IMG/VR virus record: IMGVR_UViG_3300028393_000098
Location: 1 to 49,015 of that record
DNA length: 49,015 nucleotides
Origin: a virus
Direction: 5' to 3' (one strand)
The notes below the pieces were generated by a model, which searched no databases, had not been told where the DNA came from, and worked only from the letters and a program-made list of their open reading frames with translations. Made by a program: the position numbers and the translations under genes. Positions 3,812 to 36,128 of this stretch are shown here, one piece after another (position 1 is the stretch's first letter; each line of letters begins with the position of its first letter).

Positions 3812-4412
3812 TGAAAAGGTAGGTGTAATTGATACTATCAATGTAGAAAGAGTAACCAATCCAGTTAAGACTAGAAAGATTATAGCAGTAGGTGGATCTC
3901 CTGGAACTGGCAAAACTACATTATTTCGTAAATTTATGGAAGATAAAACTTGGTTAGAAGTTTCACCTGCTAAACTAGTCAACGCCAGTTATAATACTGA
4001 GCGAGATCTTTATATTATTGGTAAATACGAAGAGGGTGAAACCTTTGCTGGAACTGACCGACTTTCTATGGCGGTTCAACCACCACTCCAAGAATGGATC
4101 GCTTCTCATAACTGTAATATCCTATTTGAGGGGGATCGGGTTTTTAACCAATCTTTCTTAGAGTTCTGTATGGGACTCCCAAATACCCAATTAGAAGTCG
4201 TATTTTTAAAGGCTCCAAAAAATATTTTAGAAGAACGCTATAGAGAGCGTGGATCTGACCAATCTGATCAATTCCTAAAAGGTAGGGAAACTAAATATAG
4301 TAACCTGATGTCTAATTTTGACTTGATGCCCTATATTACTGAGTTTGCGAACACTAACTTAGAGGAGCAACAGAAGGTACTTGCTTTTTTGGAGAAGCAC
4401 TTTATTAGTTAA
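3801..4412 (+). CDS. P-loop kinase, probable 5-hydroxymethyl-dU DNA kinase type
   Basis: A small P-loop phosphotransferase. Walker A is GGSPGTGKTT at 31-40. Further conserved-looking blocks are FAGTDRLSM (82-90), ILFEGDRVF (107-115; the acidic Walker B-like strand) and GRETKYSNL (161-169; a basic lid-like region following the ERYRERG segment). The GTDRLS and GRETK blocks resemble phage kinases found beside amino acid:DNA transferases that phosphorylate 5-hydroxymethyl-dU in DNA. That function is inferred from resemblance and from the transferase two genes upstream. At 203 aa it is about the size of a deoxynucleoside monophosphate kinase, which is the main alternative. Confidence 0.7.
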   Translation: MAFDEKVGVIDTINVERVTNPVKTRKIIAVGGSPGTGKTTLFRKFMEDKTWLEVSPAKLVNASYNTERDLYIIGKYEEGETFAGTDRLSMAVQPPLQEWIASHNCNILFEGDRVFNQSFLEFCMGLPNTQLEVVFLKAPKNILEERYRERGSDQSDQFLKGRETKYSNLMSNFDLMPYITEFANTNLEEQQKVLAFLEKHFIS

Positions 4413-5175: not shown

Positions 5176-6033
5176 ATGAAAGATTATAGACAACTAATCA
5201 AAGAATTACCGAGTAAAACGATAGTTCTCGCCTGTAGTAAGTTTAACCCTCCGACTATCGGACACGAACTTCTTATAAAGGCTGTCAAATCTCTAGCTGA
5301 GCAGAAGAATGCTAGCTACGCCATTTATGCGTCCGATATAAGCGACGCTAAAAAGAATCCCTTAATAGTAGAAAAGAAAATACAGTATTTAAACCTGTTG
5401 TTTCCGAACACCAGTTTTTCTACATATTCAGATAATATTAATGAAGTAGTCGCTAAGTTAAAAGAAACCTACCGTAATGTTATTGTCGTTACTAGTGCAG
5501 ATAAAGTAACCTCATTAAAGAAGTCTTTGAAAGAAGCTACAGTAATTTCAGCTATGGATACAGATCCTGATACTGAAGAAGCTACTCGTAATTTTGCAGT
5601 TAAAGGTTTATACGAAGAGTTTAAAAAGAATTTACCATCAGCTATCCGTGATATTGATTCTCGTAGATTGATGAATGATTTGAGAGTTGGTTCTGGAGTT
5701 GAACCAGTTAAAGAAGAAATTAAATTAGTTAAAGACGAACTACGTGAACAATATTTCCGTGGTGAGATTTTTAATGTTGGTGAAACAGTAGAAGCCGAAG
5801 GACAACAATATGAGATTGTTAAGCGTGGCTCTAATCACCTATTACTAAAAGAATCTACTGGTAAATTAGTAAGTAAGTGGATTCAAAATGTTAAATTAGT
5901 AGAGAAGAAAGTAGAGAAGAAAAAATTAAAATCTTTTAAATCTACTGTTAAAGATAATCAACCAAATGGTTTAGAAAATGTTGATTATAAATTACCGTAT
6001 GATCCAATGAGTAGTTCAAATGCTGTCGTTTAA
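5176..6033 (+). CDS. Cytidylyltransferase-fold protein with capsid-targeting-like N-terminus
   Basis: 285 aa. Residues 16-160 form a nucleotidylyltransferase (HxGH) domain: FNPPTIGH at 23-30 is the nucleotide-binding motif, followed by SDISDAKKNPL, a layout shared with the first domain of the large gene at 9449. The C-terminal part (from about residue 195, EQYFRGEIFNVGETVE... GSNHLLLKES) looks like a small beta domain found in marine T4-like phage proteins. The first residues (MKDYRQLIKE) resemble the T4 capsid-targeting sequence MKTYQEFIAE. It follows a late promoter candidate. Substrate unknown; an NMN/pantetheine/glycerol-phosphate-type adenylyl- or cytidylyltransferase is possible. Confidence 0.7.
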   Translation: MKDYRQLIKELPSKTIVLACSKFNPPTIGHELLIKAVKSLAEQKNASYAIYASDISDAKKNPLIVEKKIQYLNLLFPNTSFSTYSDNINEVVAKLKETYRNVIVVTSADKVTSLKKSLKEATVISAMDTDPDTEEATRNFAVKGLYEEFKKNLPSAIRDIDSRRLMNDLRVGSGVEPVKEEIKLVKDELREQYFRGEIFNVGETVEAEGQQYEIVKRGSNHLLLKESTGKLVSKWIQNVKLVEKKVEKKKLKSFKSTVKDNQPNGLENVDYKLPYDPMSSSNAVV

Positions 6034-6412
6034 ACAATATGTTTCTAATAGAGAAGCAATTGATGAAGAAACTATTTCTCAAAGACAACATTCTAAATTT
6101 AGATTAAGAACTAGTCAAAGAAAACGTAGTTTTAAAGCAGGTATAGCAAGACATACAGTTGCTAGTGGTAAAAAAGCAGCAAGTCGTGCCAGAAGAATGG
6201 CAATACGAATGATAAAGAAACGAATGTTACGTGGTAGAAAGTTACGTAATCTAGCACCAGATGAAAAAGCAAGTATTGAAAAGCGTATGAAAACTAAAAT
6301 GGCTCAGGTTAAACAAATGGCAAAAAGTTTAATACCAACTATTAGAAGAATTGAAAAATCAAGATTAACCCATGGGTCAGTTTCTCGTGGTAAAAATAGG
6401 AAAGTATTTTAA
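6020..6412 (+). CDS. Small highly basic protein, candidate internal head protein
   Basis: 130 aa, extremely rich in Arg and Lys (for example RARRMAIRMIKKRMLRGRKL), so very likely nucleic-acid binding. It begins MLSFKQYV, related to the N-termini of the following genes and to the T4 capsid-targeting motif. It overlaps the upstream gene by 14 bases. I do not recognise a family. A role in DNA condensation or as an internal protein packaged with DNA is inferred from charge, context and N-terminus only. Confidence 0.65.
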   Translation: MLSFKQYVSNREAIDEETISQRQHSKFRLRTSQRKRSFKAGIARHTVASGKKAASRARRMAIRMIKKRMLRGRKLRNLAPDEKASIEKRMKTKMAQVKQMAKSLIPTIRRIEKSRLTHGSVSRGKNRKVF

Positions 6413-6413
6413 A

Positions 6414-6860
6414 ATGGATGAATTAATAGCAGCACTTAAAGTTCTTCAAGCAAATGCAACTGTTATGTATTATAAAGTACATCAGTTTCATTGGAACGTA
6501 GAAGGTATCTTATTTACTCAATATCACGAATTCTTTGGTGATCTGTATGAAGACATTTATAATTCAATTGACCCAATCGCTGAGAATCAACGTAAATTGG
6601 GTGCTTATGCTCCAGTAAGTCTTGATGAGTTGTTTAAATTCAAAACATTAAAAGAAGAAACTACAAAAGTAGAATTACTTGCTGATATTCTAGCTTCTCT
6701 TATTGAAGCTAATAACGAAGTGCTTATCAGCCTAAATAATGTGTTCGATCTAGCTACTAAACATAAGAAACAAGGTATTGCTAACTTTGTTGCTGATAGA
6801 ATTGATACTCACGAAAAGCATGGCTGGTGGTTGCGTGCTTCTGCAAAGAAAATAGGATAA
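6414..6860 (+). CDS. dps: Dps-like ferritin (DNA protection during starvation)
   Basis: 148 aa, normal Dps length, one four-helix bundle. VHQFHWNVEG (22-31), HEFF (38-41) and the helix DLYEDIYNSIDPIAE (43-57) supply the His, Asp and Glu residues of the intersubunit ferroxidase site. Dps dodecamers oxidise and store Fe(II) with peroxide, and many bind DNA. The ATG at 6414 follows AGGAAAG; an in-frame ATG at 6372 would overlap the upstream gene by 41 bases and lacks such a site. It sits inside the block of putative head-packaged proteins but lacks their N-terminal motif, so whether it is packaged or expressed in the cell is open. Confidence 0.85.
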   Translation: MDELIAALKVLQANATVMYYKVHQFHWNVEGILFTQYHEFFGDLYEDIYNSIDPIAENQRKLGAYAPVSLDELFKFKTLKEETTKVELLADILASLIEANNEVLISLNNVFDLATKHKKQGIANFVADRIDTHEKHGWWLRASAKKIG

Positions 6861-6861
6861 T

Positions 6862-8058
6862 ATGAAATCGTTTCAATCATACTTAAAAGAAGCTGCTGAA
6901 GAAGGCGCAAAACTTAAACACATTACTCATCCAGAAGATCGTCCATTAATGCATGGACATGAAGGATTTGAGCATGCTCATGGTGCTTTAATGCACGCAC
7001 ATGAGCATATGAAAGCTGGTAAGAATAACGCAAATCTTACAACTAAGTATGATGGTTCTCCTGCTGTAGTTTTCGGTACACACCCTAAGAATAAAAAATT
7101 CTTTGTTGCTTCTAAATCTGCATTCAATAAAGAACCAAAGATTAATCATACTGATGCTGACATCGATAAGAATCATGGTCATGCTCCAGGTCTTGCTGCT
7201 AAATTAAAAGCAGCACTACACCACTTACCTAAAGTTACACCAAAGGGTAAAGTATATCAGGGTGATATTATGCACTCTGAAGGTGATGTTAAACACGATA
7301 AGAAAACAGGCAAAGCATCCTTTACTCCTAACACTATTACCTATACTGCTTCTGGCGATGAAGCTAAGAAAGCTACAAAAGCAAAAGTAGGTGTTGCTGT
7401 TCATACTCAATATCATGGTAAAGATATTGCGTCTCTATCTGCTCACCACGAAGTTAATCATCATGAATTTGGTCAGCATCCTGACGTACATCACCACGAT
7501 GCCAGCTATGATACTAAATCTGTAAATCATTCTCAAGCTAACCAAGATGAGTTCCATAAGCATATGGCTGCAGCAAAAGCAGTTCATGACACTCATGGTG
7601 ATAAAATGTATAAAGCTATTCACCCTGCGCATAGTGGTGAACATGGTCACTTAGCCACTTACATTAATTCAACTGTTAGAAATAATACTACTCCAAACGT
7701 AAAAGATTTTAAAGCTCATCTTGAAGCACATCATGCTAAGCAAGTTGCTGGTGTTAAAACTGAGAAAGCGCAAAACGCTAAACGTGAAAAAGGTAATGAA
7801 GAAATCTCTCACGTTGAGAAGAATAAAGCGCATTATGAGAATGTATTAACTGCTCATAATCATCTAGCAGCTGCAAAGAATATACTAGTAAAATCTCTAG
7901 AAAGTGGTCATAGTAATTATGAACACCATATCGAAGGTAAAGAATCTAAACCAGAAGGATTTGTTATTAACCATGAACACAATGGTAAAACAGAACCTTC
8001 TAAACTTGTGAACCGAGCTGAGTTCGCCAGATCAAACTTGTTAAAGGTAAGAAAATGA
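6862..8058 (+). CDS. His-rich KxDG protein, possible ligase/nucleotidyltransferase fold (DUF6267-like)
   Basis: 398 aa and remarkably His/Lys rich. It begins MKSFQSYLKE|A, a good match to the T4 capsid-targeting sequence including an LxE|A prohead-protease-like site. TTKYDGSPAVVFG (60-72) matches motif I (KxDG) of DNA/RNA ligases and capping enzymes. YQGDIM (132-137) could be motif III, PEGFVIN (364-370) motif IV and SKLVNR (380-385) motif V. Order and spacing fit a covalent nucleotidyltransferase. I think this belongs to a phage family named DUF6267, from memory. It may seal nicks in injected DNA, or may be an inactive relative. The ligase reading is inference from motifs. Confidence 0.65.
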   Translation: MKSFQSYLKEAAEEGAKLKHITHPEDRPLMHGHEGFEHAHGALMHAHEHMKAGKNNANLTTKYDGSPAVVFGTHPKNKKFFVASKSAFNKEPKINHTDADIDKNHGHAPGLAAKLKAALHHLPKVTPKGKVYQGDIMHSEGDVKHDKKTGKASFTPNTITYTASGDEAKKATKAKVGVAVHTQYHGKDIASLSAHHEVNHHEFGQHPDVHHHDASYDTKSVNHSQANQDEFHKHMAAAKAVHDTHGDKMYKAIHPAHSGEHGHLATYINSTVRNNTTPNVKDFKAHLEAHHAKQVAGVKTEKAQNAKREKGNEEISHVEKNKAHYENVLTAHNHLAAAKNILVKSLESGHSNYEHHIEGKESKPEGFVINHEHNGKTEPSKLVNRAEFARSNLLKVRK

Positions 8059-9158
8059 AATCATTTAAAACTTTTGTGATTGAAGAAATCTATTTTCCAG
8101 AGACTTTATTAGAAGCTAAAGATGATGCTACCAAAGCTGGTGGTGTATCAAATAATACTAAAGGTGTTCTTCACGAACTATTAGTTGGTAAGCATTTAAA
8201 TGGCGGAAATCATATGCCCACACATGAAAATGCTGAGGGTGAAACCCCCGAACAAGCGCACGATCGCTTAAAGAAACAAATTCACCCAGACGACTATAAA
8301 AAGATTCACGCTAAAGCTAAATCCGCTGCAGAAGATATTAAAGCAAATCATGCTAAAACTCATCCAGGGCATGTAATCCATGCAGTTCATTGGACATCAA
8401 AGGCTGGAGATACTGAAAAGGTTACTGGAGTTAAGGCTGCTCAAAGTGGTAAAGATTCAGATTCATCCGATGTGTATTTTTCTTCACACCATCCTAGTAA
8501 ACCTAAAGTTGTAGTTCACCATGGGGTTAGTTTAAAGGTTAGTGATAATTCTAGTAAGAATGTTCCATCATCAAGTCTTGGTATGGAATCTAGTGGGTCT
8601 AAAGCAAAAGATTTATTTAAAGAACATCAGAAAAAAGTGCATGAAATCGCTCCAGGATTAAAAGATGTTAAAAAGGAAGCTCATCATAAAGATATTAAAG
8701 ATGCTCGTAAAGAATGGGCTCAGAAAAATCCTGAACTTCATAATAAAATTAAAGCAGAAAATAAAAAACTATTGGTTAATGTTGCTCACCATCACGCTGC
8801 TGAATTACAAACCCATTTAAATAACGGAAATCATGAACACGTAATTAATCATATCCGTAATATTCTTGCTGCTAGACATACTCCTGCAGTTGAAGCTAAG
8901 AAAGCAACTTTTCAGAAACATACAACTTTTGAAACTTCTAAAGGTGTTCAGCATCATACGTCAGATCCAGGTCATGATTATGAACATATTCTAAAAGATC
9001 ACAAGAATATTAAAGTACAAGCAAAAGGTGGCTCAGTTCATTTTACTCACACAGATCCTAAGACTGGTAAAGAAACTAAATTTGCTTCTCAAGCACACAA
9101 GTTTGATTCACAAAGCGATCCATTAAGCACTATTAAGAGCGCAGGTAAGGCTGTATAA
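8055..9158 (+). CDS. His/Lys-rich protein with possible nuclease-like core and capsid-targeting-like N-terminus
   Basis: 367 aa. It starts MKSFKTFVIEE and has LLE|A at 18-21, which could be a prohead-protease site. GVLHELLVGKHLNGG (37-51), SSDVYF (137-142) and GVSLKVS (157-163) are arranged like the Glu, Asp and xxK elements of a PD-(D/E)xK nuclease, but this is a weak pattern match. The remainder is Lys/His-rich helix (residues 190-300). It starts in an ATGA overlap with the upstream KxDG protein, so the two are translationally coupled and possibly partners. Function not known. Confidence 0.6.
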   Translation: MKSFKTFVIEEIYFPETLLEAKDDATKAGGVSNNTKGVLHELLVGKHLNGGNHMPTHENAEGETPEQAHDRLKKQIHPDDYKKIHAKAKSAAEDIKANHAKTHPGHVIHAVHWTSKAGDTEKVTGVKAAQSGKDSDSSDVYFSSHHPSKPKVVVHHGVSLKVSDNSSKNVPSSSLGMESSGSKAKDLFKEHQKKVHEIAPGLKDVKKEAHHKDIKDARKEWAQKNPELHNKIKAENKKLLVNVAHHHAAELQTHLNNGNHEHVINHIRNILAARHTPAVEAKKATFQKHTTFETSKGVQHHTSDPGHDYEHILKDHKNIKVQAKGGSVHFTHTDPKTGKETKFASQAHKFDSQSDPLSTIKSAGKAV

Positions 9159-9159
9159 A

Positions 9160-9447
9160 ATGTTATCATTTAAAGAATACCTTGCAGAAGCTGCAGTTGA
9201 TGCCAAAGGATATAAGTCATCTACTGGTGGATTAACACAGAAAGGTGTTGATGCATATAATAGAAAGACTGGTGGTCATCTAAAGATGGCAGTTACTACA
9301 CCACCATCTAAATTAAAAGCTGGAAGTAAAGCTGCGAATCGTCGTAAGTCTTTCTGTGCACGAATGGGTGGTATGGAAGGTGCAATGAAAAAACCAAATG
9401 GCGAGCCAACTCGTAAAGCACTAGCATTAAGAAAATGGAATTGCTAA
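9160..9447 (+). CDS. Small DUF6321-like protein
   Basis: 95 aa. It begins MLSFKEYLAE|A, the clearest capsid-targeting and LxE|A protease-site match in the block. The body (SSTGGLTQKGVDAYNRKTG, then SKAANRRKSFCARMGGMEG and PTRKALALRKWNC) matches a short, very conserved basic phage/virus domain that I recall as DUF6321. The two Cys and the Arg/Lys suggest nucleic-acid binding. It would be packaged with DNA if the N-terminal signal is real. Molecular function is unknown. Confidence 0.75.
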   Translation: MLSFKEYLAEAAVDAKGYKSSTGGLTQKGVDAYNRKTGGHLKMAVTTPPSKLKAGSKAANRRKSFCARMGGMEGAMKKPNGEPTRKALALRKWNC

Positions 9448-9448
9448 A

Positions 9449-12115
9449 ATGATTAACTATAAAGATCTTCAAGAGAAAGGTATCTGTTGGACTGGATACA
9501 AACGTAAAAAAGGTACTAAACCTTATGAAGATGGCAGCTGTGTGAAAGAAGAATCAGAAAAGCACCACGCTATCGCATTTGGTCGTATGAATCCAATTAC
9601 GTCAGGTCACGAAGCAGTAGTTAATAAACTACATTCAGTAGCAAAAGAACATGGTGCATCACATAACCTTATTGTTTCTCATAGCCAAGATGCTAAGAAA
9701 AACCCATTAAGTGCTGCTCAAAAAGTTACACATGCTAAGAATGCATTCCCTGGAACTAAGGTAACTGCTGCTAGTAAAGAAACACCGACTATTCTTCACC
9801 ATGCTGCTGCAGCCCATGCTGCTGGTGTAACTCATTTACATGTAATAGCTGGTTCTGACCGCCACGAAGAGATGCATAATCTGCTTAATAAATATAATGG
9901 TCAGAATGCTGCTCATGGTCACTATAATTTTAAAAAGATTACTGTTCATTCTTCTGGTGAACGTGATCCAGACGCAGAAGGTACGACAGGTATATCAGCA
10001 AGTAAAATGCGTGAGCACGCTGCTGCTGGTAATAAGAAAGAATTTCATAAAGGTGCACCATCTAAAATGAAACCAGAACACAAAGACGCAATGTATAACG
10101 ATGTGCGTAAAGGTATGGGAATTAATGAAGATATTTATACATCTGAATATAAAATCAAAACTTGGGTAGATCCAGTTACTGGTGAAACTAAAACAAGAAA
10201 AATTAGACCACATAGAATTGACTTTAAAAATAGTAGAATGGGTGCTACTCCAAGTCAACCAGCAGTTAAAGAACAAGCTCCAGTTGCTCCAGTTCCAAAT
10301 AAGAAATATATTAAAGGAACTCCAGAGCACAAAGCATATAAAGCAACTAAGAAACCAATCAATGGTATGCCAACTAATCAGTGTAAAGAAGAAACTATGG
10401 ATCAACAAGCCGATCGTAAAATGCAATTAAAGCGTTTCAAAGACCAAATGACTAAAGCAAATGGACCACAGGTAGATACTGAGATCCCTCTAGATAAAAA
10501 AGAAAAAGACGTAATGCTTGGTAAAATTAAAGTAAAGAAAACTCCTACTGGTTTAAGTAAAGAAGATAAACAAGAACTACATGATGTTAATGAAGTCTTA
10601 CGTCCAGAAATGGGTGCAAGCACTTACATTAATGACTTTATTAAATCTACAAACCCACGTTTTAATAATAAGTCTAAAGAAGAACGTCGCAAAATGGCTA
10701 TTGGTGCTTACATGGCTGCCAAAGCACGTGGTGTTCAAGAAGCTCGTGGTTTAGCTGGCAAATATTACAGCATTGCGCAAGATCGTAAAGAAACTGCAGA
10801 TCAGAACAAAGGTAATCATGAAACTTATCATACCCATATGGGTGATTATCATGATCATATGAGCCGTTACCATGAAGAACTAGGTCAACATTCTCATGCG
10901 CAAGCCCATGCTGATAAAGCAGAGATTCATCATGAGAAATCAATGCAGCGAAGAAAGGCTGTTAAAGAAGGTACTATGCAAGCAAATGGTACTGATAAGA
11001 TTGATACTCAAACTTCTGCTCCAACAGCTTCAACTGTAAAAGATACTACTCAAGGTAAAAAGATTAAAGGATTTAAATTCTTTAATGGAGCATCAGAACA
11101 AATGAAAGAATCTGCATTACAAAAGTTTAGAGCAGAAGCCGATGCTCGTGCAAAGAAACACGATGAGATCGAAGCTAAACGTAAGAAAGCAGCTGAAGAA
11201 GGTAAAGAAAATATGTCCGCAGCCATTACTGCTTTATCTAAACAAGTTGCAGAAGGCTGGCATGAAAAACCTGCTTCAGCATATCGTCGTCCAGCAGATC
11301 ATCACTATCAAGTTACTTACTATGATAAATCTGGTAAAGCTAGTGATTCATCAAAGCGTTTTGCAGAAAAAGAAAAAGCAGAAGCCCATGCAGACAAAGG
11401 GAATGCTATTGATAAGGTTGGTGGATCATACAGAGTTCACAGAGTTGGTTCTCCAATTGATGAAGCATCTGTTCCACAAAAAGGTGTTAATGTAGATAAC
11501 GTAAATGCTGCTGGTCAAGAACCTCATGAAGAAAAGTGGGAACCAGTTAAGAAAAAAGTAACTAAAATTAAAAAAGAGGAAACTATGAAATCATATAAAG
11601 AGTTTTTACAAGCGTTAGATGAAAAATTAATTGGGAAACAAAAGAAATTAGATAAGAATCATAATAATAAATTAGATTCTGAAGATTTCGCAATGCTTCG
11701 TAAAGAAGAAGTTGAATCGATTGAAGAACTTTCTAAGAAAACTTTAGGTAAATATATCAACAAAGCTGCATCGTCATCATCTGAATCTGGTAGAAAATTT
11801 GGTGTGTCACAGGAACAAGATGGTGGTGAAGATGAACTTGGTAGCGGTGATGATTATCATTTATCCACAATGAATAAACGTCAGCAAGGCATCAAAGCTG
11901 CAGTTAAAAAATTAACTAAAGAAGAATATATAGATGAAGTTAAAATGGCGGATCTACCTTCACGTAAGATCCAAGGTAAATCTTATGGCGCAGATTACAC
12001 TGATCCAGAAGGTGCTGATGACGCTGATGATAAAAAACCAGCTAAAGCTGCAGGTCGCAAACTCGGCCAGAGCATCGGCACTTATAAACGTCGTCAGCCA
12101 AAAGCTGCGTGTTAA
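9449..12115 (+). CDS. Large modular protein with N-terminal nucleotidylyltransferase domain
   Basis: 888 aa. Residues about 38-225 form an HxGH nucleotidylyltransferase domain (FGRMNPITSGHEAVV at 44-58; GTTGISASKMREH is the family's second motif). The rest is Lys/Glu/His-rich, low in hydrophobic residues and modular, with segments ending in near-identical KEETM or KEGTM joints. One joint contains a new MKSYKEFLQALDE start. The start (MINYKDLQEKG) resembles the capsid-targeting motif. It may be a head-packaged polyprotein cut by the prohead protease, or a fusion of several internal proteins. The reaction and substrate of the transferase domain are unknown. Confidence 0.7.
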   Translation: MINYKDLQEKGICWTGYKRKKGTKPYEDGSCVKEESEKHHAIAFGRMNPITSGHEAVVNKLHSVAKEHGASHNLIVSHSQDAKKNPLSAAQKVTHAKNAFPGTKVTAASKETPTILHHAAAAHAAGVTHLHVIAGSDRHEEMHNLLNKYNGQNAAHGHYNFKKITVHSSGERDPDAEGTTGISASKMREHAAAGNKKEFHKGAPSKMKPEHKDAMYNDVRKGMGINEDIYTSEYKIKTWVDPVTGETKTRKIRPHRIDFKNSRMGATPSQPAVKEQAPVAPVPNKKYIKGTPEHKAYKATKKPINGMPTNQCKEETMDQQADRKMQLKRFKDQMTKANGPQVDTEIPLDKKEKDVMLGKIKVKKTPTGLSKEDKQELHDVNEVLRPEMGASTYINDFIKSTNPRFNNKSKEERRKMAIGAYMAAKARGVQEARGLAGKYYSIAQDRKETADQNKGNHETYHTHMGDYHDHMSRYHEELGQHSHAQAHADKAEIHHEKSMQRRKAVKEGTMQANGTDKIDTQTSAPTASTVKDTTQGKKIKGFKFFNGASEQMKESALQKFRAEADARAKKHDEIEAKRKKAAEEGKENMSAAITALSKQVAEGWHEKPASAYRRPADHHYQVTYYDKSGKASDSSKRFAEKEKAEAHADKGNAIDKVGGSYRVHRVGSPIDEASVPQKGVNVDNVNAAGQEPHEEKWEPVKKKVTKIKKEETMKSYKEFLQALDEKLIGKQKKLDKNHNNKLDSEDFAMLRKEEVESIEELSKKTLGKYINKAASSSSESGRKFGVSQEQDGGEDELGSGDDYHLSTMNKRQQGIKAAVKKLTKEEYIDEVKMADLPSRKIQGKSYGADYTDPEGADDADDKKPAKAAGRKLGQSIGTYKRRQPKAAC
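11585..12115 (+). CDS. Candidate internally initiated product of the large modular gene
   Basis: An in-frame ATG at 11585 sits 4 bases after a strong ribosome site (GAGGAA). It begins MKSYKEFLQALDE, the same capsid-targeting-like motif that opens the neighbouring genes. The product would be 176 aa, containing KNHNNKLDSEDFAM, an EF-hand-like loop seen in several phage proteins, and a basic C-terminus. Either this is a second product of the gene, or the motif marks an old gene fusion. Confidence 0.4.
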   Translation: MKSYKEFLQALDEKLIGKQKKLDKNHNNKLDSEDFAMLRKEEVESIEELSKKTLGKYINKAASSSSESGRKFGVSQEQDGGEDELGSGDDYHLSTMNKRQQGIKAAVKKLTKEEYIDEVKMADLPSRKIQGKSYGADYTDPEGADDADDKKPAKAAGRKLGQSIGTYKRRQPKAAC

Positions 12116-12148: not shown

Positions 12149-12988
12149 ATGGCACTATGGGGAAATAAGGACGCTGTTGCTATCACTGGCACAACTGTCA
12201 GCGTCACTAATGGTTCTAAAGCTGTAACTGGCTCTGGAACTACGTTTTTAACAGATTTACAAGTTGGTTCTATTGTAGAAATTACTTCTGGCACAACTGC
12301 CAAAAGTCGTGTTGCTGCAATCACTTCAGATACTGCATTAACATTATCCGATAACTTTCCTGGCACTACTGCTGCTTCGTTGGCAATTGCTAACGTGAAA
12401 AAGCAACTAATGCCTAAGAATGTATATCGTCAATCTGCTGGTGGTACTGCTGGTACTCGTGGTGCTACTAACCTAGCAACTGTAGTTGGTGTTGATATTA
12501 CTGAAGCACAAGCTACATCAAACCGTGCCAAGGGTATTAAGATTCCAGGTTGGACGCAGTTTAAGACATATACTGACGCACAAGGTAATACTCGTCGTAA
12601 AGTGGTAGTTCTTGTTGCTGGTAATGGCTTTACTCAAGCAACTATGTCTGATGCTACTGATGATACTATCGTTAACGATCGTTCAATTACTATCGGTACT
12701 CAACCTGCTACCGTTACTGGTGCAGCTGCCACATACACTGGTACATTCGCTGTAGCAGCAACTGTTACTAATACTGGTTCATTGACTTACAACTGGCAAG
12801 TATCTACTAACAGCGGATCTACTTGGGCTAATGCATCAGGTGGTGTTTACTCAGGTAACACAACTAATACATTGACTCTAACTAATGCTGCTAAAGCAAC
12901 TTATAACAACTATCAATTCCGTTGCCAAGTAAGTGCAGCTGGTGCTGATACTGTAACAAGTACTGCTGCTACTCTAGTATACGCTTAA
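12149..12988 (+). CDS. Virion structural protein with C-terminal Ig-like domain
   Basis: 279 aa, rich in Thr, Ala, Gly and Val with few charges, as in capsid or tail surface proteins. The N-terminus MALWGNKDAVAITGTTVSV and the region to about residue 190 match, from memory, a structural protein common in marine T4-like phages. Residues 190-279 (LTYNWQVSTNSGSTWANAS ... NTLTLTNAAKATYNNYQFRCQ) form an Ig-like beta sandwich of the kind used as virion decoration or carbohydrate-binding modules. It has a strong ribosome site, a late promoter candidate upstream and a terminator downstream, so it is probably highly expressed and monocistronic. Confidence 0.75.
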   Translation: MALWGNKDAVAITGTTVSVTNGSKAVTGSGTTFLTDLQVGSIVEITSGTTAKSRVAAITSDTALTLSDNFPGTTAASLAIANVKKQLMPKNVYRQSAGGTAGTRGATNLATVVGVDITEAQATSNRAKGIKIPGWTQFKTYTDAQGNTRRKVVVLVAGNGFTQATMSDATDDTIVNDRSITIGTQPATVTGAAATYTGTFAVAATVTNTGSLTYNWQVSTNSGSTWANASGGVYSGNTTNTLTLTNAAKATYNNYQFRCQVSAAGADTVTSTAATLVYA

Positions 12989-31828: not shown

Positions 31829-31902
31829 TGGGGATTAGTGTAGTGGTAGCACAACAGATTTTGATTCTGTCGGTATAAGTTCGATTCTTATATCCCCTGC
31901 CA
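31829..31902 (+). tRNA. tRNA-Gln (TTG)
   Basis: Cloverleaf with anticodon loop TTTTGAT and encoded CCA. The first acceptor pair is T-T, and the terminal pair is likewise weak in other tRNA-Gln. First of the cluster. Confidence 0.85.
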
Positions 31903-31906
31903 AAAT

Positions 31907-31981
31907 GCGAGCATGGCGCAGTGGTAGCGCAGCGGACTTTTAATCCGTTGGTCGTGAGTTCGAATCTCACTGCTCGTACCA
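31907..31981 (+). tRNA. tRNA-Lys (TTT)
   Basis: GCGAGCA acceptor, loop CTTTTAA, canonical T loop TTCGAAT, encoded CCA. Confidence 0.9.
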
Positions 31982-31994
31982 AGTTTTCTTTGGT

Positions 31995-32068
31995 GTGGCT
32001 ATGTTGTAATGGTAGCAACACAGATTGTGATTCTGTTAGTGTGAGTTCGATCCTCACTAGCCACCCCA
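31995..32068 (+). tRNA. tRNA-His (GTG)
   Basis: GTGGCTA acceptor, loop TTGTGAT, discriminator C73 as expected for His, encoded CCA. The base at -1 is T, not the G needed by HisRS, so G-1 must be added after transcription or the start shifts. Confidence 0.85.
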
Positions 32069-32080
32069 AAGAAAATTTAT

Positions 32081-32155
32081 ACCCAATTAGCTCAGTGGTA
32101 GAGCAATCGCTTGATAAGCGATAGGTGAGTGGATCGTTACCACTATTGGGTACCA
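32081..32155 (+). tRNA. tRNA-Ile (GAT), odd T loop
   Basis: ACCCAAT acceptor, loop TTGATAA, encoded CCA. The T arm has a perfect 5-bp stem but loop ATCGTTA instead of TTCGANN, losing T54 and A58. Confidence 0.8.
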
Positions 32156-32160
32156 GTTTT

Positions 32161-32234
32161 GCCCTATTAGTATAATGGTATTACACCTGTTTTGTAATCA
32201 GGTTACGGGAGTTCGATTCTCTCATGGGGCACCA
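32161..32234 (+). tRNA. tRNA-Thr (TGT)
   Basis: GCCCTAT acceptor, loop TTTGTAA with a T-T pair closing it, encoded CCA. Confidence 0.85.
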
Positions 32235-32240
32235 GTTTTA

Positions 32241-32315
32241 CGGAATATCGGCAAGTGGTATGTCACTCGCTTTGGGAGCGAGATTTCGAAAGTTCGATTC
32301 TTTCTATTCCGACCA
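32241..32315 (+). tRNA. tRNA-Pro (TGG)
   Basis: CGGAATA acceptor, stem CTCGC/GCGAG, loop TTTGGGA, encoded CCA. Confidence 0.9.
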
Positions 32316-32322
32316 TTTTTAT

Positions 32323-32397
32323 GCAGGATTAATTCAGTGGTAGAATGTTTCGTTGCCAACGAAAATGTCATCGGTTCAAATCCGATATCCTGCTCCA
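32323..32397 (+). tRNA. tRNA-Gly (GCC)
   Basis: GCAGGAT acceptor, stem TTTCG/CGAAA, loop TTGCCAA, encoded CCA. Confidence 0.9.
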
Positions 32398-32405
32398 ATT
32401 AGTAT

Positions 32406-32479
32406 GCCTCGTTAGTTCAATGGTAGAACTCTGTCTTTACACGGCAGTTACGGCAGTTCGATTCTGTCACGAGGTACCA
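32406..32479 (+). tRNA. tRNA-Val (TAC)
   Basis: GCCTCGT acceptor (G-T first pair), loop TTTACAC, encoded CCA. Confidence 0.88.
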
Positions 32480-32481
32480 AT

Positions 32482-32556
32482 GCCCGATTAGTGAAATGAA
32501 TATCACGCTGTGCTACGAACGCAGAGGTGGAGGTTTGATTCCTTCATTGGGTACCA
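32482..32556 (+). tRNA. tRNA-Arg (ACG)
   Basis: GCCCGAT acceptor, loop CTACGAA; A34 is normally edited to inosine. Encoded CCA. Confidence 0.85.
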
Positions 32557-32564
32557 AAGTTTAT

Positions 32565-32656
32565 GGAGAGTTGTCTGAGTCTGGCTTAAGGAAACAGTCT
32601 TGAAAACTGTCGGGTATGAAAGTGCTCCGTGGGTTCGAATCCCACACTCTCCTCCA
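32565..32656 (+). tRNA. tRNA-Ser (TGA)
   Basis: Class II, 92 bases, long variable arm, loop CTTGAAA, encoded CCA. Confidence 0.9.
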
Positions 32657-32663
32657 AATTTAT

Positions 32664-32753
32664 AGTGAGTGGGCAGGATGGTAATGCAGCGGATTGCTAA
32701 TCCGTAGACTTGTGAAAGCAGGTCACAGGGTTCGACTCCCTGACTCACTGCCA
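32664..32753 (+). tRNA. tRNA-Ser (GCT)
   Basis: Class II, 90 bases, loop TTGCTAA, long variable arm, encoded CCA. Confidence 0.9.
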
Positions 32754-32760
32754 AAGGATT

Positions 32761-32837
32761 GCGGATATGATGGAATTGGTATACATATTTGACTTAAAAT
32801 CAAAGTTCTCCGAGTTCAAGTCTCGGTATCCGCACCA
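32761..32837 (+). tRNA. tRNA-Leu (TAA), short variable region
   Basis: GCGGATA acceptor, stem TTTGA/TCAAA, loop CTTAAAA, encoded CCA. The variable region is only GTTCT (5 bases), where tRNA-Leu normally has a long arm. Confidence 0.8.
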
Positions 32838-32840
32838 ATT

Positions 32841-32915
32841 ACGGCATTAGTATAATGGAGAATACAGTAGGCTTCTACCCTACGAATGTGGGTTCGATTC
32901 CTGCATGCCGTACCA
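32841..32915 (+). tRNA. tRNA-Arg (TCT)
   Basis: ACGGCAT acceptor, loop CTTCTAC, encoded CCA. Suits the AGA-rich coding here. Confidence 0.88.
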
Positions 32916-32920
32916 GTTTT

Positions 32921-32995
32921 GGGCTTATAGCATAATGGCAGTGCTGACAACTCATAATTGTTAAGGTGCTGGTTCGACCCCAGCTGAGCCCACCA
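32921..32995 (+). tRNA. tRNA with CAT anticodon (Met or Ile2)
   Basis: GGGCTTA acceptor, stem GACAA/TTGTT, loop CTCATAA, encoded CCA. Elongator Met and lysidine-modified Ile2 cannot be separated by eye. Confidence 0.85.
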
Positions 32996-32997
32996 AT

Positions 32998-33074
32998 ACC
33001 CTTGTGGACAAATTGGTAAAGTCAATTCCTCAAGAGGGAATATTCTATCGGTTCGAATCCGATCAAGGGTACCA
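32998..33074 (+). tRNA. tRNA-Leu, anticodon CAA or AAG
   Basis: ACCCTTG acceptor, encoded CCA. The perfect anticodon stem ATTCC/GGAAT leaves loop TCAAGAG (AAG, with C33); shifting by one gives the normal-looking loop CTCAAGA (CAA) but breaks the stem. Short variable region. Confidence 0.65.
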
Positions 33075-33080
33075 AGTTAT

Positions 33081-33157
33081 GTGAGTGTGAAGCTGAATGG
33101 TCAGGCTGTGGATTGCAAATCCATCTTATGCAGGTTCGAATCCTGTCACTCACTCCA
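33081..33157 (+). tRNA. tRNA-Cys (GCA)
   Basis: GTGAGTG acceptor, loop TTGCAAA, encoded CCA. Last tRNA before an internal promoter. Confidence 0.85.
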
Positions 33158-33181
33158 TAACCCTACTTGCAATATGGGTTA
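33158..33181 (+). terminator. Weak hairpin after tRNA-Cys
   Basis: TAACCC/GGGTTA stem with a 12-base loop and no T run; related to the AACCCTAC terminators and, as there, followed by a TTTACT promoter. Confidence 0.35.
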
Positions 33182-33191
33182 AAAATATCGC

Positions 33192-33220
33192 TTTACTTTT
33201 ATTAAAGAATGGCGTATAAT
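33192..33220 (+). promoter_or_regulatory. Promoter inside the tRNA cluster
   Basis: TTTACT at 33192-33197 and TATAAT at 33215-33220, 17-base spacer. It should drive the second half of the tRNA cluster. Confidence 0.75.
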
Positions 33221-33300
33221 AGTAGTATAAGTTAAGTTAATCAAAAGTCCTTTCTAAGTCTTTACGTCAAGTCGGAAGCATAAGGCATAATACGGTTTTC

Positions 33301-33332
33301 TGATGGAGTTTTTCCGAGATAAAACTCTATCA
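33301..33332 (+). other. Stable hairpin before tRNA-Glu
   Basis: TGATGGAGTTTT pairs with AAAACTCTATCA (12 bp with one G-T), 8-base loop. It ends 4 bases before the tRNA, so it may guide 5' processing or stabilise the precursor. No T run, so not a terminator. Confidence 0.55.
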
Positions 33333-33336
33333 CCAT

Positions 33337-33412
33337 GCTCGGTTCGTCTATCGGTTTAGGACACTGCCCTTTCACGGCAGGAAGACCAGTTCGATTCTGG
33401 TACCGAGTGCCA
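33337..33412 (+). tRNA. tRNA-Glu (TTC)
   Basis: GCTCGGT acceptor, stem CTGCC/GGCAG, loop CTTTCAC, encoded CCA whose last base enters the downstream helix. Confidence 0.88.
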
Positions 33413-33528
33413 TTAGTTTTGCTGATGTAAGCCATTGGGTAAACGTCAACCCTCCGTAACTTATTCAATAAACAGTAAACTCGAGTAAAGCTGTTGAGAT
33501 GAGCAAATAGTGCGTCAGCAAAACTAAT
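33412..33528 (+). ncRNA. Structured spacer RNA between tRNA-Glu and tRNA-Tyr
   Basis: A perfect 14-bp helix (33412-33425 with 33515-33528) closes an 89-base interior containing GGGT/ACCC and AACAG/CTGTT hairpins. It fills the gap between two tRNAs and includes no good ORF. It could be a processed small RNA or a precursor-folding element. Confidence 0.5.
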
Positions 33529-33533
33529 AGTAT

Positions 33534-33617
33534 GGGGAAGAAGCATCAATGGTGATGCAGTGGACTGTAAATCCGCCGACTCTGTCACGACTGGTTCGAT
33601 CCCAGTATTCCCCACCA
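33534..33617 (+). tRNA. tRNA-Tyr (GTA)
   Basis: Class II, 84 bases, loop CTGTAAA, acceptor GGGGAAG (G7-A66 mismatch), encoded CCA. Confidence 0.88.
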
Positions 33618-33703
33618 CGAATTGGCACTGTAAGAAGTCCATCAGAGGTTTGACGAGCCTGCAAATCAATCAATACAATTTGCGAATTTTGTCACCATAT
33701 TTT

Positions 33704-33778
33704 GGTCTTGTCATATAGTGGTTATTATACCTGCCTGTCTAGTAGGATATCGGGGTTCGATTCCCCGCAAGATCGCCA
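33704..33778 (+). tRNA. tRNA-Asp (GTC)
   Basis: GGTCTTG acceptor, loop CTGTCTA, G73, encoded CCA. The 86-base spacer before it holds only a small GCAAAT/ATTTGC hairpin. Confidence 0.88.
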
Positions 33779-33787
33779 AGTTTCTGT

Positions 33788-33863
33788 TCCTCGATAGCTC
33801 AGTTGGTAGAGCACATGACTGTTAATCATGGGGTCGCACGTTCAAGCCGTGCTCGAGGAGCCA
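33788..33863 (+). tRNA. tRNA-Asn (GTT)
   Basis: TCCTCGA acceptor, loop CTGTTAA, G73, encoded CCA. Confidence 0.9.
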
Positions 33864-33871
33864 AAAGTTAT

Positions 33872-33945
33872 TGCGGGTTGTGATAGTCACCACTTGGTTT
33901 CATATGCCAATGTTGAAGGGGGAGCGTTACCCTCGCCCGCATCCA
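33872..33945 (+). tRNA. Degenerate tRNA-like element with CAT anticodon
   Basis: TGCGGGT pairs with GCCCGCA, followed by T73 and CCA. The anticodon stem TTGGT/GCCAA gives loop TTCATAT. The D arm is shortened (GTGA, 3-base loop, TCAC), without the usual GG, and the T loop is AGCGTTA. May be a decaying tRNA-Met or a tRNA mimic. Confidence 0.45.
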
Positions 33946-33960
33946 AATAAGTAGTAGTAT

Positions 33961-34043
33961 GCCCTGATGGTGGAATTGGTAGACACGCTGGTCTTAGAAG
34001 CCAGTACTTCGGTGTGAGAGTTCGAGTCTCTCTTAGGGCACCA
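33961..34043 (+). tRNA. tRNA-Leu (TAG)
   Basis: GCCCTGA acceptor, stem CTGGT/GCCAG, loop CTTAGAA, 11-base variable region, encoded CCA. Confidence 0.88.
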
Positions 34044-34219
34044 TTGTTGAAGATCCGAAAGCGAGGATGACTAACCATCTACCTGACTGCTGAGGGTGTA
34101 CCAACCTATATTAGTATTCCACCTCAGTTATTCGAGGAAGAAACCTATGGTGGGTTTAGGATGAGAATATAGGGACTGAAAGAAGTCTTAATCGGATATG
34201 GCAGTATCTTCAACAATGG
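34041..34219 (+). ncRNA. Structured spacer RNA with predicted pseudoknot
   Basis: A perfect 14-bp helix (34041-34054 with 34206-34219) includes the CCA of tRNA-Leu and the first bases of the next tRNA. Inside: CCGA/TCGG, the crossing helices CTGAGG/CCTCAG (34090-34095 with 34122-34127) and CCTATATT/AATATAGG (34105-34112 with 34166-34173), plus hairpins AAACC/GGTTT and GACT/AGTC. No convincing ORF. Not recognised as a known RNA class. Confidence 0.5.
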
Positions 34220-34292
34220 TGATGTAGCACAGTGGTAGTGCACCTCCTTCATACGGAGATGGTCGTTAGTTCAAATCTAACCATCACCACCA
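34218..34292 (+). tRNA. tRNA with CAT anticodon (Met or Ile2)
   Basis: GGTGATG acceptor, loop TTCATAC, encoded CCA. It has a normal G1-C72 pair, so not an initiator. Second intact CAT tRNA in the cluster; one may be Ile2. Confidence 0.85.
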
Positions 34293-34310
34293 AGCATAAG
34301 TAGTATTATC

Positions 34311-34386
34311 GGGGGTGTAGCTCAGTTGGGAGAGCGTATGCTTTGCAAGCATAATGTCGTCGGTTCGATCCCGTCCACCTCCACCA
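34311..34386 (+). tRNA. tRNA-Ala (TGC)
   Basis: GGGGGTG acceptor with G-T third pair, stem TATGC/GCATA, loop TTTGCAA, encoded CCA. Confidence 0.9.
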
Positions 34387-34406
34387 CATATTATAAGGAG
34401 AAGTAA

Positions 34407-34589
34407 ATGGCAACAAAAGGAAAAAATTCTAATCAAAAGAATCGTAAAGCTGATCCAATGCGTACTAAGAATGGTAAAGAGCGTCTTGGTCCATTAAATG
34501 TTGCGCAACTTACTGCTCTTAAAGAGCGTAGTTCTCAGAAGAAAGTTCAAGCAAAGATTCAAAAAGAAATTGATCGTAAATCAAAATAA
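34407..34589 (+). CDS. Small basic protein
   Basis: 60 aa, Lys/Arg/Asn/Gln rich (MATKGKNSNQKNRKADPMRT), helical C-terminal half. Strong AAGGAGAAG ribosome site. Follows tRNA-Ala directly. Probably nucleic-acid binding; no family recognised. Confidence 0.65.
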   Translation: MATKGKNSNQKNRKADPMRTKNGKERLGPLNVAQLTALKERSSQKKVQAKIQKEIDRKSK

Positions 34590-34595
34590 ACAAAA

Positions 34596-35126
34596 GTGTA
34601 TAAAATAATAAATGATTTACTTACTGCTGAAGAGCAAGATATATTAGAGAATTCTGTTCTTAATGAATATACATCATGGAATTTTAACAGATTTGCTGCG
34701 TATAAACATCCTGCATTTAATATAAGTAATAATACAAAGAAGCATATTAATTCTTTCCGTCATTTAATATTTGATGGGGAAATAAAAGATAAAGAATTGT
34801 TTGATAAATTTATAATTATACCACAACGTCTCGGTGCAAAAAACATTTACAATATAATTGCTCAGTTACAATTAGTAACTAGAGAAACTAATGGTCAAGT
34901 AATTAAACATATTGATATGCCAACGCATTCAACTCCATATTTTTCTACAGTATATTATGTTAATAAAAGTAATGGACCAACAGTTTTGTATAATAATGAT
35001 GGTTCTGAGCTTATTAGATGCGAGCATGAACGTGGTAAACTTATAATGTTTGATGGTAATATACTTCACCATGCATCAAAACCTACTATTGATATTAGAT
35101 GTATAGTAAATTTCTGTTGGGATTAA
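34596..35126 (+). CDS. 2-oxoglutarate/Fe(II) oxygenase-like protein
   Basis: 176 aa, GTG start 7 bases after the upstream stop; an ATG start is not available nearby. VIKHIDMPTHSTPYFSTVYY carries HxD, GKLIMFDGNILHHAS the distal His, and IDIRCIVNFCWD the Arg. All metal and 2OG residues are in place. It is one of eight such enzymes here. Substrate unknown. Confidence 0.7.
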   Translation: MYKIINDLLTAEEQDILENSVLNEYTSWNFNRFAAYKHPAFNISNNTKKHINSFRHLIFDGEIKDKELFDKFIIIPQRLGAKNIYNIIAQLQLVTRETNGQVIKHIDMPTHSTPYFSTVYYVNKSNGPTVLYNNDGSELIRCEHERGKLIMFDGNILHHASKPTIDIRCIVNFCWD

Positions 35127-35127
35127 C

Positions 35128-35625
35128 ATGGCAAAAAAATATTTAAAGTATGTTGTTACTAGAGAAGATCAATCGTTATATGAAGATTTTGACATATTCT
35201 GTAAAGAATTCAATGGAAAAAATTTATTAAATATAGGTAATAAACATGCATGGAATTTACATCAAATGATTCAGAAAATATTTTTCTGTAACTGGCCAAA
35301 TACCAATTTTAGAAAATATTTTGTAAAAGCTGAAACTTGTATTTTAAACACTGGTGATGAAATTAAACAAATATCATGCAATAATAATCCAGATAATTAT
35401 TTTGGATACTTGTGTGTAAATTCAGATAATAAGACTAATATTAATTTTACTGTTGATACTATTAAAGAAAGTATAAATTTAGAATCTAAATTATTACTAA
35501 TATCACCATCAAATTATGAAACACATTCTATACAGTGGGGAGAAACATTCCCATTATTGTTAATTAAAATTAATATAATTCCTGCAGAAAATATAAAAAA
35601 TCAATTTGATTGGACACCATTGTAA
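35128..35625 (+). CDS. Hypothetical beta-rich protein
   Basis: 165 aa with many Asn and Ile. The second half (ETCILNTGDEIKQISC ... LLLISPSNYETHSIQWG) has strand patterns like a cupin or degraded oxygenase barrel, but no HxD or iron ligands. Between two genes of the oxygenase-rich segment; function unknown. Confidence 0.55.
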   Translation: MAKKYLKYVVTREDQSLYEDFDIFCKEFNGKNLLNIGNKHAWNLHQMIQKIFFCNWPNTNFRKYFVKAETCILNTGDEIKQISCNNNPDNYFGYLCVNSDNKTNINFTVDTIKESINLESKLLLISPSNYETHSIQWGETFPLLLIKINIIPAENIKNQFDWTPL

Positions 35626-36011
35626 TGGCACATGATTTAGATGTGGCTCATATTGCTTCTAAATTATATCCTAATGATACAGTTTCTATTGGCGTAGATT
35701 CTGTTAAAAAAGAAAATAAAATAATTTACAATATATCTGTTATAGTAAGATCTTCTGGTAATAAAGCGTGTATAATATGGACAAAAGATATTGAAGATTT
35801 TATTATAGATAACACATATAGAGATATGAAAGAACTTAATCTTTTATCTAATATGTATCATGAATTATATCCATATATTAAAGAACATGAAGTTAATTTT
35901 TCAGCTAAGATACATAAAAATTGGTTCAGTCGATTTAAATATGAAGAACGAAATAATAAATTAAAAATAAGTTTTTGCCCTTGTAGCTCATTTGGTAGAG
36001 CATCTGATTAG
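35625..36011 (+). CDS. Hypothetical protein whose end overlaps a tRNA
   Basis: 128 aa from ATG 35625 (TAATG overlap with the upstream gene). The last 11 codons (about CPCSSFGRASD) are read from the 5' half of tRNA-Thr(AGT), so the C-terminus may be an accidental extension formed when the tRNA inserted. The core (NDTVSIGVDSVKKENKIIYN) has no known motif. Confidence 0.55.
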   Translation: MAHDLDVAHIASKLYPNDTVSIGVDSVKKENKIIYNISVIVRSSGNKACIIWTKDIEDFIIDNTYRDMKELNLLSNMYHELYPYIKEHEVNFSAKIHKNWFSRFKYEERNNKLKISFCPCSSFGRASD

Positions 36012-36052
36012 TAATCAGGAGGTGGGCGGTTCGAGTCCGTCCAAGGGCACCA
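35977..36052 (+). tRNA. tRNA-Thr (AGT)
   Basis: GCCCTTG acceptor, stem TCTGA/TCAGG, loop TTAGTAA, canonical T loop TTCGAGT, encoded CCA. An A34 anticodon for Thr is unusual in bacteria. Confidence 0.8.
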
Positions 36053-36054
36053 AT

Positions 36055-36128
36055 ATCTCATTGGTGTAATGGCAGCACAAATGTCTCCAAAACATTTAGT
36101 CGGGGTTCGAGTCCCTGGTGGGATGCCA
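36055..36128 (+). tRNA. tRNA-Trp (CCA)
   Basis: ATCTCAT acceptor pairing through two G-T pairs, stem AATGT/ACATT, loop CTCCAAA, G73, encoded CCA. Confidence 0.85.

Follow-up and report, generated by a model that had tools for sequence, protein, structure and literature searches.

Genes for putative head-packaged enzymes carry T4-type capsid-targeting N-termini in a freshwater T4-like phage

The current study concerns a block of seven genes at positions 5176-12115 of a 49,015-base IMG/VR virus record (IMGVR_UViG_3300028393_000098), the whole of which was analyzed and is referred to here as the window. The window derives from a freshwater T4-like phage whose nearest named relatives are T4-like phages, namely cyanophages, Pelagibacter phage HTVC008M and Methylophilales phage Melnitz, and a search of public phages with the block at the DNA level yielded no match. 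The window contains 53 predicted genes, and its relatives were examined in a set of 80 viral contigs. At the extreme N-terminus of six of the block proteins, all encoded on the plus strand, lies a tag of about ten residues of the type known from T4 as the capsid-targeting sequence (CTS). Gene A (5176..6033) begins with MKDYRQLIKE, followed by a cytidylyltransferase- or nicotinamide mononucleotide adenylyltransferase (NMNAT)-like domain, while gene B (6020..6412) begins with the CTS-like MLSFKQYVSNREAIDE and encodes a small protein very rich in Lys and Arg. Gene C (6414..6860), also on the plus strand, is Dps/ferritin-like (PF00210, E-value 4e-22) and has no CTS. Gene D (6862..8058) carries MKSFQSYLKE ahead of a DUF6267 protein (PF19782, E-value 9e-104) with a predicted RNA/DNA-ligase (covalent nucleotidyltransferase) fold, gene E (8055..9158) carries MKSFKTFVIE ahead of a modelled HinP1I/MspI-like PD-(D/E)XK nuclease fold, and gene F (9160..9447) carries MLSFKEYLAE ahead of DUF6321 (PF19846, E-value 9e-25). 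Gene G (9449..12115) opens with a weak CTS, MINYKDLQE, and continues through an NMNAT-like domain into a long tail with an internal CTS-like MKSYKEFLQ (11585..12115). A preceding sequence-only reading, which had recognized these N-termini as capsid-targeting-like, placed six tagged starts here, and all of them (5176, 6020, 6862, 8055, 9160 and 9449) are true open-frame starts; its count of six genes needs amending to seven, because the Dps/ferritin-like gene lies untagged among them. The notion that every gene of the block is tagged was dropped, since the Dps-like gene as well as many DUF6321 relatives are without a tag.

The tag is confined to the block to a degree that chance does not reproduce. 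With a pattern that was partly tuned on the block sequences, but whose positions 4, 7, 8 and 10 were taken from T4 mutagenesis, the full CTS pattern is found in 4/53 window genes and the T4 4-7-8 pattern in 5/53, all within the block. Shuffling of the N-termini yielded on average 0.03-0.04 matches per block, with the observed count attained in none of 20,000 trials. When all start codons on both strands were scanned, a single extra site appeared, inside nrdB, and the reversed window sequence contained zero matches to the tag. Genes A, B, D, E and F conform at targeting positions 4 and 7 (aromatic/hydrophobic), and gene G has Y4 and L7. The fitting LxE cleavage site for the prohead protease gp21, which had been attributed to several of the tags, is present at positions 8-10 in A (IKE), D (LKE), F (LAE) and E (VIE, with V first); it is not present there in B, which has N at position 10, or in G, where LQE occupies positions 7-9. 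The same scan of T4 recovered the internal proteins IPII and IPIII, plus gene 61.1. In a pair of relatives with long contigs, of 164.7 kb and 170.5 kb, the homologous region again holds most of the matches at ATG gene starts. As a separate observation, T4 gene 61.1 (L090:19130, AF158101, minus strand) starts with MKTFKEFIKED, which is the full CTS pattern, and is annotated in its record only as hypothetical.

Mutagenesis of T4 IPIII assigns residues 4 and 7 to targeting and residues 8 and 10 to gp21 processing, and Asp at position 10 stops cleavage while leaving targeting unaffected (PMC9026906). It is these same positions that are held among the relatives, even as the letters of the tag drift (MKSF, MLNF, MKRF, MGRF and others). 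Counting distinct N-termini, and picking the pattern-fitting start wherever two candidate starts lie close together, the full pattern is found in 29/35 homologues of A, 30/37 of D, 9/14 of E, 9/29 of F and 21/37 of G, compared with 0/28 for the non-tagged neighbors, i.e., the gene at 4381, the Dps-like gene and the MALWG head protein gene at 12149. Pooled and trimmed, the comparison is 95/150 block N-termini versus 0/27 neighbor N-termini (p=6e-11, with sequences that are not independent, due to kinship). An alignment of homologue N-termini had been proposed earlier as a check, and the tag is indeed kept. A shared N-terminus could conceivably also reflect a translation-initiation or protein-stability signal of a single operon, as the codon context after the ATG might be common to its genes. 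This is scarcely credible here, because it is the amino acid classes at positions 4, 7, 8 and 10 that are conserved rather than the codons adjacent to the ATG, the same-strand neighbors are never tagged, and T4 IPII and IPIII match the pattern.

The tag also appears to be portable. DUF6267 homologues of gene D are untagged in Syn1, S-PM2, S-MbCM7 and S-SZBM1 and tagged in Melnitz, C48C1, DLP_6 and the lineage of the window; with the tag either present or absent on the same DUF6267 body, it is best regarded as a movable part. In many relatives it is fused to unrelated bodies, and L041 encodes still other cargo with the tag, one example being a small protein that contains a HAD-like FDIDDTLF motif and for which Pfam returned nothing beyond a sub-threshold DUF2608 match. 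Furthermore, a second leader of about 20 residues (SLxSVAxTYxxMLxE) is found on gene D in L049, L050, L053-L059, L061, L064-L067 and L069, and also on the unrelated gene E in L065 and L067, with an x-E site at its end (MFELLSLQSVADTYIDMLSEA; MINLQSLHSVANTYISVIAES). At several of these loci, the nucleotidyltransferases retain the short tag. From its sequence, the second leader is possibly an alternative capsid-targeting sequence, and since D and E of this sub-lineage bear it in place of the tag, tag and scaffold may co-evolve.

N-termini of gene B relatives (MLSFKEYVSDRETIDE / MLTFKDYVSDREAIDE) have D at position 10 followed by T/A-I-D-E, so cleavage of the B protein could possibly occur after I-D-E, i.e., later than position 10. 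The tag of gene F is kept in only part of its relatives, and N-termini of gene C relatives contain no match to it. In relatives, too, the Dps/ferritin-like gene is part of the cargo block, with 28 loci matched; it is never tagged, and its product might protect or bind DNA. The seventh copy of the motif, which the sequence-only reading had located within the last gene, is in frame at 11585 (MKSYKEFLQA). It is kept in about 10 related loci with GAGGA (as in the window) or GAGGGA preceding the ATG, and GAG accounts for only 14% of the Glu codons in the gene G open reading frame. At 16981 in L041, a related module forms the beginning of an independent gene. The 11585 tag is possibly an internal start, or else marks a second packaged or cleaved piece. 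It is followed by an EF-hand-like DKNHNNKLDSED; this EF-hand-like DKNHNNKLDSEDF module (window 11585-11700) recurs in many relatives, where it lies in the long tails of block proteins, and L066 has it in duplicate.

Behind the tags, the predicted domains agree with the nucleotidylyltransferase, ligase-like and nuclease-like assignments made previously, the first from Pfam/PHROG matches and the other two from models of D and E. Gene A falls just under the cut-off for PF01467 (E-value 5e-4), while its Pfam/PHROG matches support a nucleotidyltransferase and the TIGH form of the (H/T)xGH motif of NMNAT enzymes is kept. In gene G, both (H/T)xGH and SxTxxR are represented, as TSGH and SASKMR, and A and G are homologous to PHROG 3041/395. 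When D, E and the nucleotidyltransferase domain were searched by sequence against solved structures, there were no matches, and for this reason AlphaFold models were used to assign the folds of D and E. Foldseek alone was weak (E-value 2.5e-3 for gene E and 0.3 for gene D), and the fold claims rest on VIA Z-scores together with invariant motifs. In both models, the tag is disordered or of low confidence and the enzyme fold follows it. The gene D model (predicted local distance difference test [pLDDT] 87.6; residues 1-18 of low confidence) matches Naegleria RNA ligase with Z 9.4 over 185 residues, and the best 32 matches listed are all ligases. Its motifs I, III, IV and V correspond to KYDG (62-65), YQGD (132-135), EGFV (365-368) and KLV (381-383), with K62-Y-D-G65, Y132-Q-G-D, E365-G-x-V and K381-L-V-N invariant in 29 sequences. 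Both the modelled fold and the motifs are those of a polynucleotide ligase or covalent nucleotidyltransferase; Trl1 and T4 Rnl2 likewise share them, whereas gene D differs from the solved RNA ligases in a large helical insertion (residues ~225-347) and has no detectable sequence similarity to them. Gene E has no family match in Pfam or PHROG. Its model (pLDDT 85.9, with low confidence at residues 1-22) resembles HinP1I (Z 9.7, 215 residues) and MspI (Z 7.7); lower scores were obtained for Hjc and EcoRV. E41, D139 and K161 (in S159-L-K161) are invariant in 14 sequences. With a PD-(D/E)XK fold in the model, a catalytic D...xK and a helix-borne E, gene E encodes a predicted nuclease. It has the same fold as HinP1I/MspI, but only ~10% identity and an extra helical part; the spacing from D139 to K161 resembles that of the HinP1I/MspI active sites.

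Additional support comes from virion proteomes of related phages. In all four cyanophages examined, the virion-detected nucleotidyltransferase homologue has a CTS start: MKKFSAFLNEA in S-SM1 (T4-GC190; PMC3037559), MKNFSSFLTEA in the S-CREM2 cytidylyltransferase gp154 (PMC10665884), MRFRQFIIEA in S-SZBM1 (PMC9146016) and MKSFLQFLKEA in S-SCSM1 (PMC9602691). Genes A and G of the window can be aligned with S-CREM2 gp154 as well as S-SZBM1_140. When the published S-CREM2 proteome (PMC10665884) was combined with its genome, five of the six full-pattern starters, namely gp6 (S-adenosylmethionine [SAM] lyase), gp13, gp14 (kinase), gp136 and gp154, were found in the virion versus 47/213 of the others (Fisher p=0.003). 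A relaxed regular expression abolished this enrichment (p=0.13), thus discrimination depends on the full pattern. The S-CREM2 virion protein gp12 (L086:7704-10313), annotated as Cas9-like, contains a CTS-like LRFASFMAEA at residue 17; it was not counted as tagged, as no ATG, GTG or TTG directly precedes this sequence, and this could mean either that the start of gp12 is misannotated or that the tag functions from an internal position. In S-PM2, the GC190 protein was undetected in virions (PMC3037559), and the nucleotidyltransferase domain there forms a fusion with a DUF6267 protein that has no tag. The necessary head machinery is also encoded in the related set, with a gp21-type protease plus a gp23-type major capsid protein on 6/8 longer related contigs; among the six is L016/G006, which encodes a D protein with 92% identity to that of the window. 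These proteases are 49-59% identical to that of S-CREM2.

Since highly expressed proteins may persist in CsCl-purified stocks (PMC10665884, PMC9602691), the cyanophage detections could be due to contamination and the tag of the window could be an inherited relic without a packaging role. We consider this very unlikely, given the enrichment of tagged proteins among those detected in S-CREM2, the presence of the tag on 4/4 detected nucleotidyltransferases even though untagged forms exist (Syn1, S-MbCM7 and S-PM2), and the retention of the pattern while its letters drift. A further scenario, in which the tagged proteins are prohead core components that bind the scaffold through their N-termini and are degraded or expelled at maturation rather than injected, has a precedent in the T4 core proteins gp22 and gp67, whose gp21 fragments mostly exit the head (PMC9026906), and the long low-complexity tail of gene G does resemble a core protein. 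It is nevertheless rather unlikely, as enzyme active-site motifs are conserved behind the tag, and mature purified cyanophage virions contain nucleotidyltransferases, SAM lyase and kinase that bear it.

Several points weigh against a head-cargo role. The 49 kb window does not extend to the head genes and the proteome data are from other phages; for two of these proteomes, the authors were unable to dismiss carry-over of proteins expressed at high levels (PMC10665884, PMC9602691). The tagged small proteins 191 and 192 of S-SZBM1 were undetected in its virion, where the enrichment was not significant among ~30 detected proteins, and many virion proteins are untagged, indicating that other packaging routes exist. 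Four of the tags are stronger than those of B (6020, no E at position 10) and G (9449, LxE at 7-9), a search of gene A for the second NMNAT motif, SxTxxR, did not find it, and the enzyme activity of the cargo is predicted from fold matches. Despite this, we favor, with a probability of about 0.82, a head-cargo role for this gene cluster, whose tagged proteins would be packaged. The capsid-targeting interpretation made from sequence is upheld by the T4 IPII/IPIII control, the unrelated bodies behind the tag, its variable occurrence on the same body and the tagged virion proteins of four cyanophages. Very probably, at least A, D, E and F are packaged in this phage and the tag is probably cleaved in its head, while delivery of the cargo into the host is somewhat favored.

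Based upon these features, a plausible sequence of events can be outlined. The tagged proteins would be made with a ten-residue T4-type CTS, in which position 4 (aromatic) and position 7 (either aromatic or aliphatic) would, by analogy with T4 IPIII, mediate binding to the prohead scaffolding core. A gp21-type prohead protease would then cut after (L/I/V)-x-E at positions 8-10, and the mature enzymes would remain with the DNA in the head and enter the host together with it. The putative cargo, comprising a restriction-fold nuclease, a protein with a polynucleotide-ligase fold, a pair of NMNAT-like nucleotidyltransferases, a basic protein and DUF6321, would act in the first minutes of infection, ahead of phage gene expression. 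Its job could be the processing of DNA ends and nicks or an attack on host DNA, together with the supply of NAD (nicotinamide adenine dinucleotide) or a related nucleotide, and could partly be counter-defense. This role in early DNA cutting and sealing, nucleotide supply and possibly counter-defense is a tentative guess from the predicted folds.

The closest parallel is found in T4 itself, where IPI, IPII and IPIII (CTS MKTYQEFIAE) share with the block the N-terminal location, residues 4/7/8/10, a head with a gp21-type protease and unrelated bodies behind the tag. However, the T4 cargo is small and anti-restriction or DNA-bound, whereas that of the block consists mostly of large enzymes from one cluster, and the bodies are not evidently related. 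The cyanophage T4-GC190 cytidylyltransferase/NMNAT proteins (S-SM1, S-CREM2, S-SZBM1 and S-SCSM1) are similar in their homology to A and G, neighborhood, CTS-like start and presence in virions, but their hosts are Synechococcus, their tag is unremarked in the published texts consulted, and the S-PM2 form is untagged and fused to the ligase-fold protein. The ejection proteins of SPN3US/phiKZ also have propeptides cut after Glu by a gp21-type protease, and a mass of protein is sent into the host; by the same published description, phiKZ differs in its S/A-x-E cleavage motif as well as in its head and cargo (PMC9026906). A T4 review already proposes varied cargo via the CTS (PMC9026906). In the open literature we found no paper linking the T4 CTS to these phages, with most subscription papers beyond the reach of this search.

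Two other regions of the window deserve mention. A cluster of 25 tRNA genes at 31829-36128 covers most amino acids and is rich for a 49 kb phage fragment. At 243-2332, consecutive glutamine amidotransferase-like, weakly amidoligase-like and acetyltransferase-like genes perhaps form a small-molecule or surface-modification cassette.

When NMNAT/cytidylyltransferase, SAM lyase and kinases were found in cyanophage virions, several groups left the choice between cargo and contamination undecided. A ten-residue tag marking virion enzymes would largely decide this matter from sequence, and it would permit the prediction of virion cargo across abundant aquatic phages. It seems moderately likely that T4-like phages at large (Kyanoviridae and allies) employ the T4 CTS as a portable signal for head import in order to deliver enzymes, and that the tag predicts which of their "metabolic" or anti-restriction proteins, such as NMNAT, SAM lyase, kinase, ligase and nuclease, travel as virion cargo, with the second leader used on D and E in one sub-lineage. 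If so, the classical T4 mechanism would be widened from small inhibitors to a cluster of enzyme genes, and the tagged cargo would indicate the earliest requirements of such phages, in the first minutes after infection begins.

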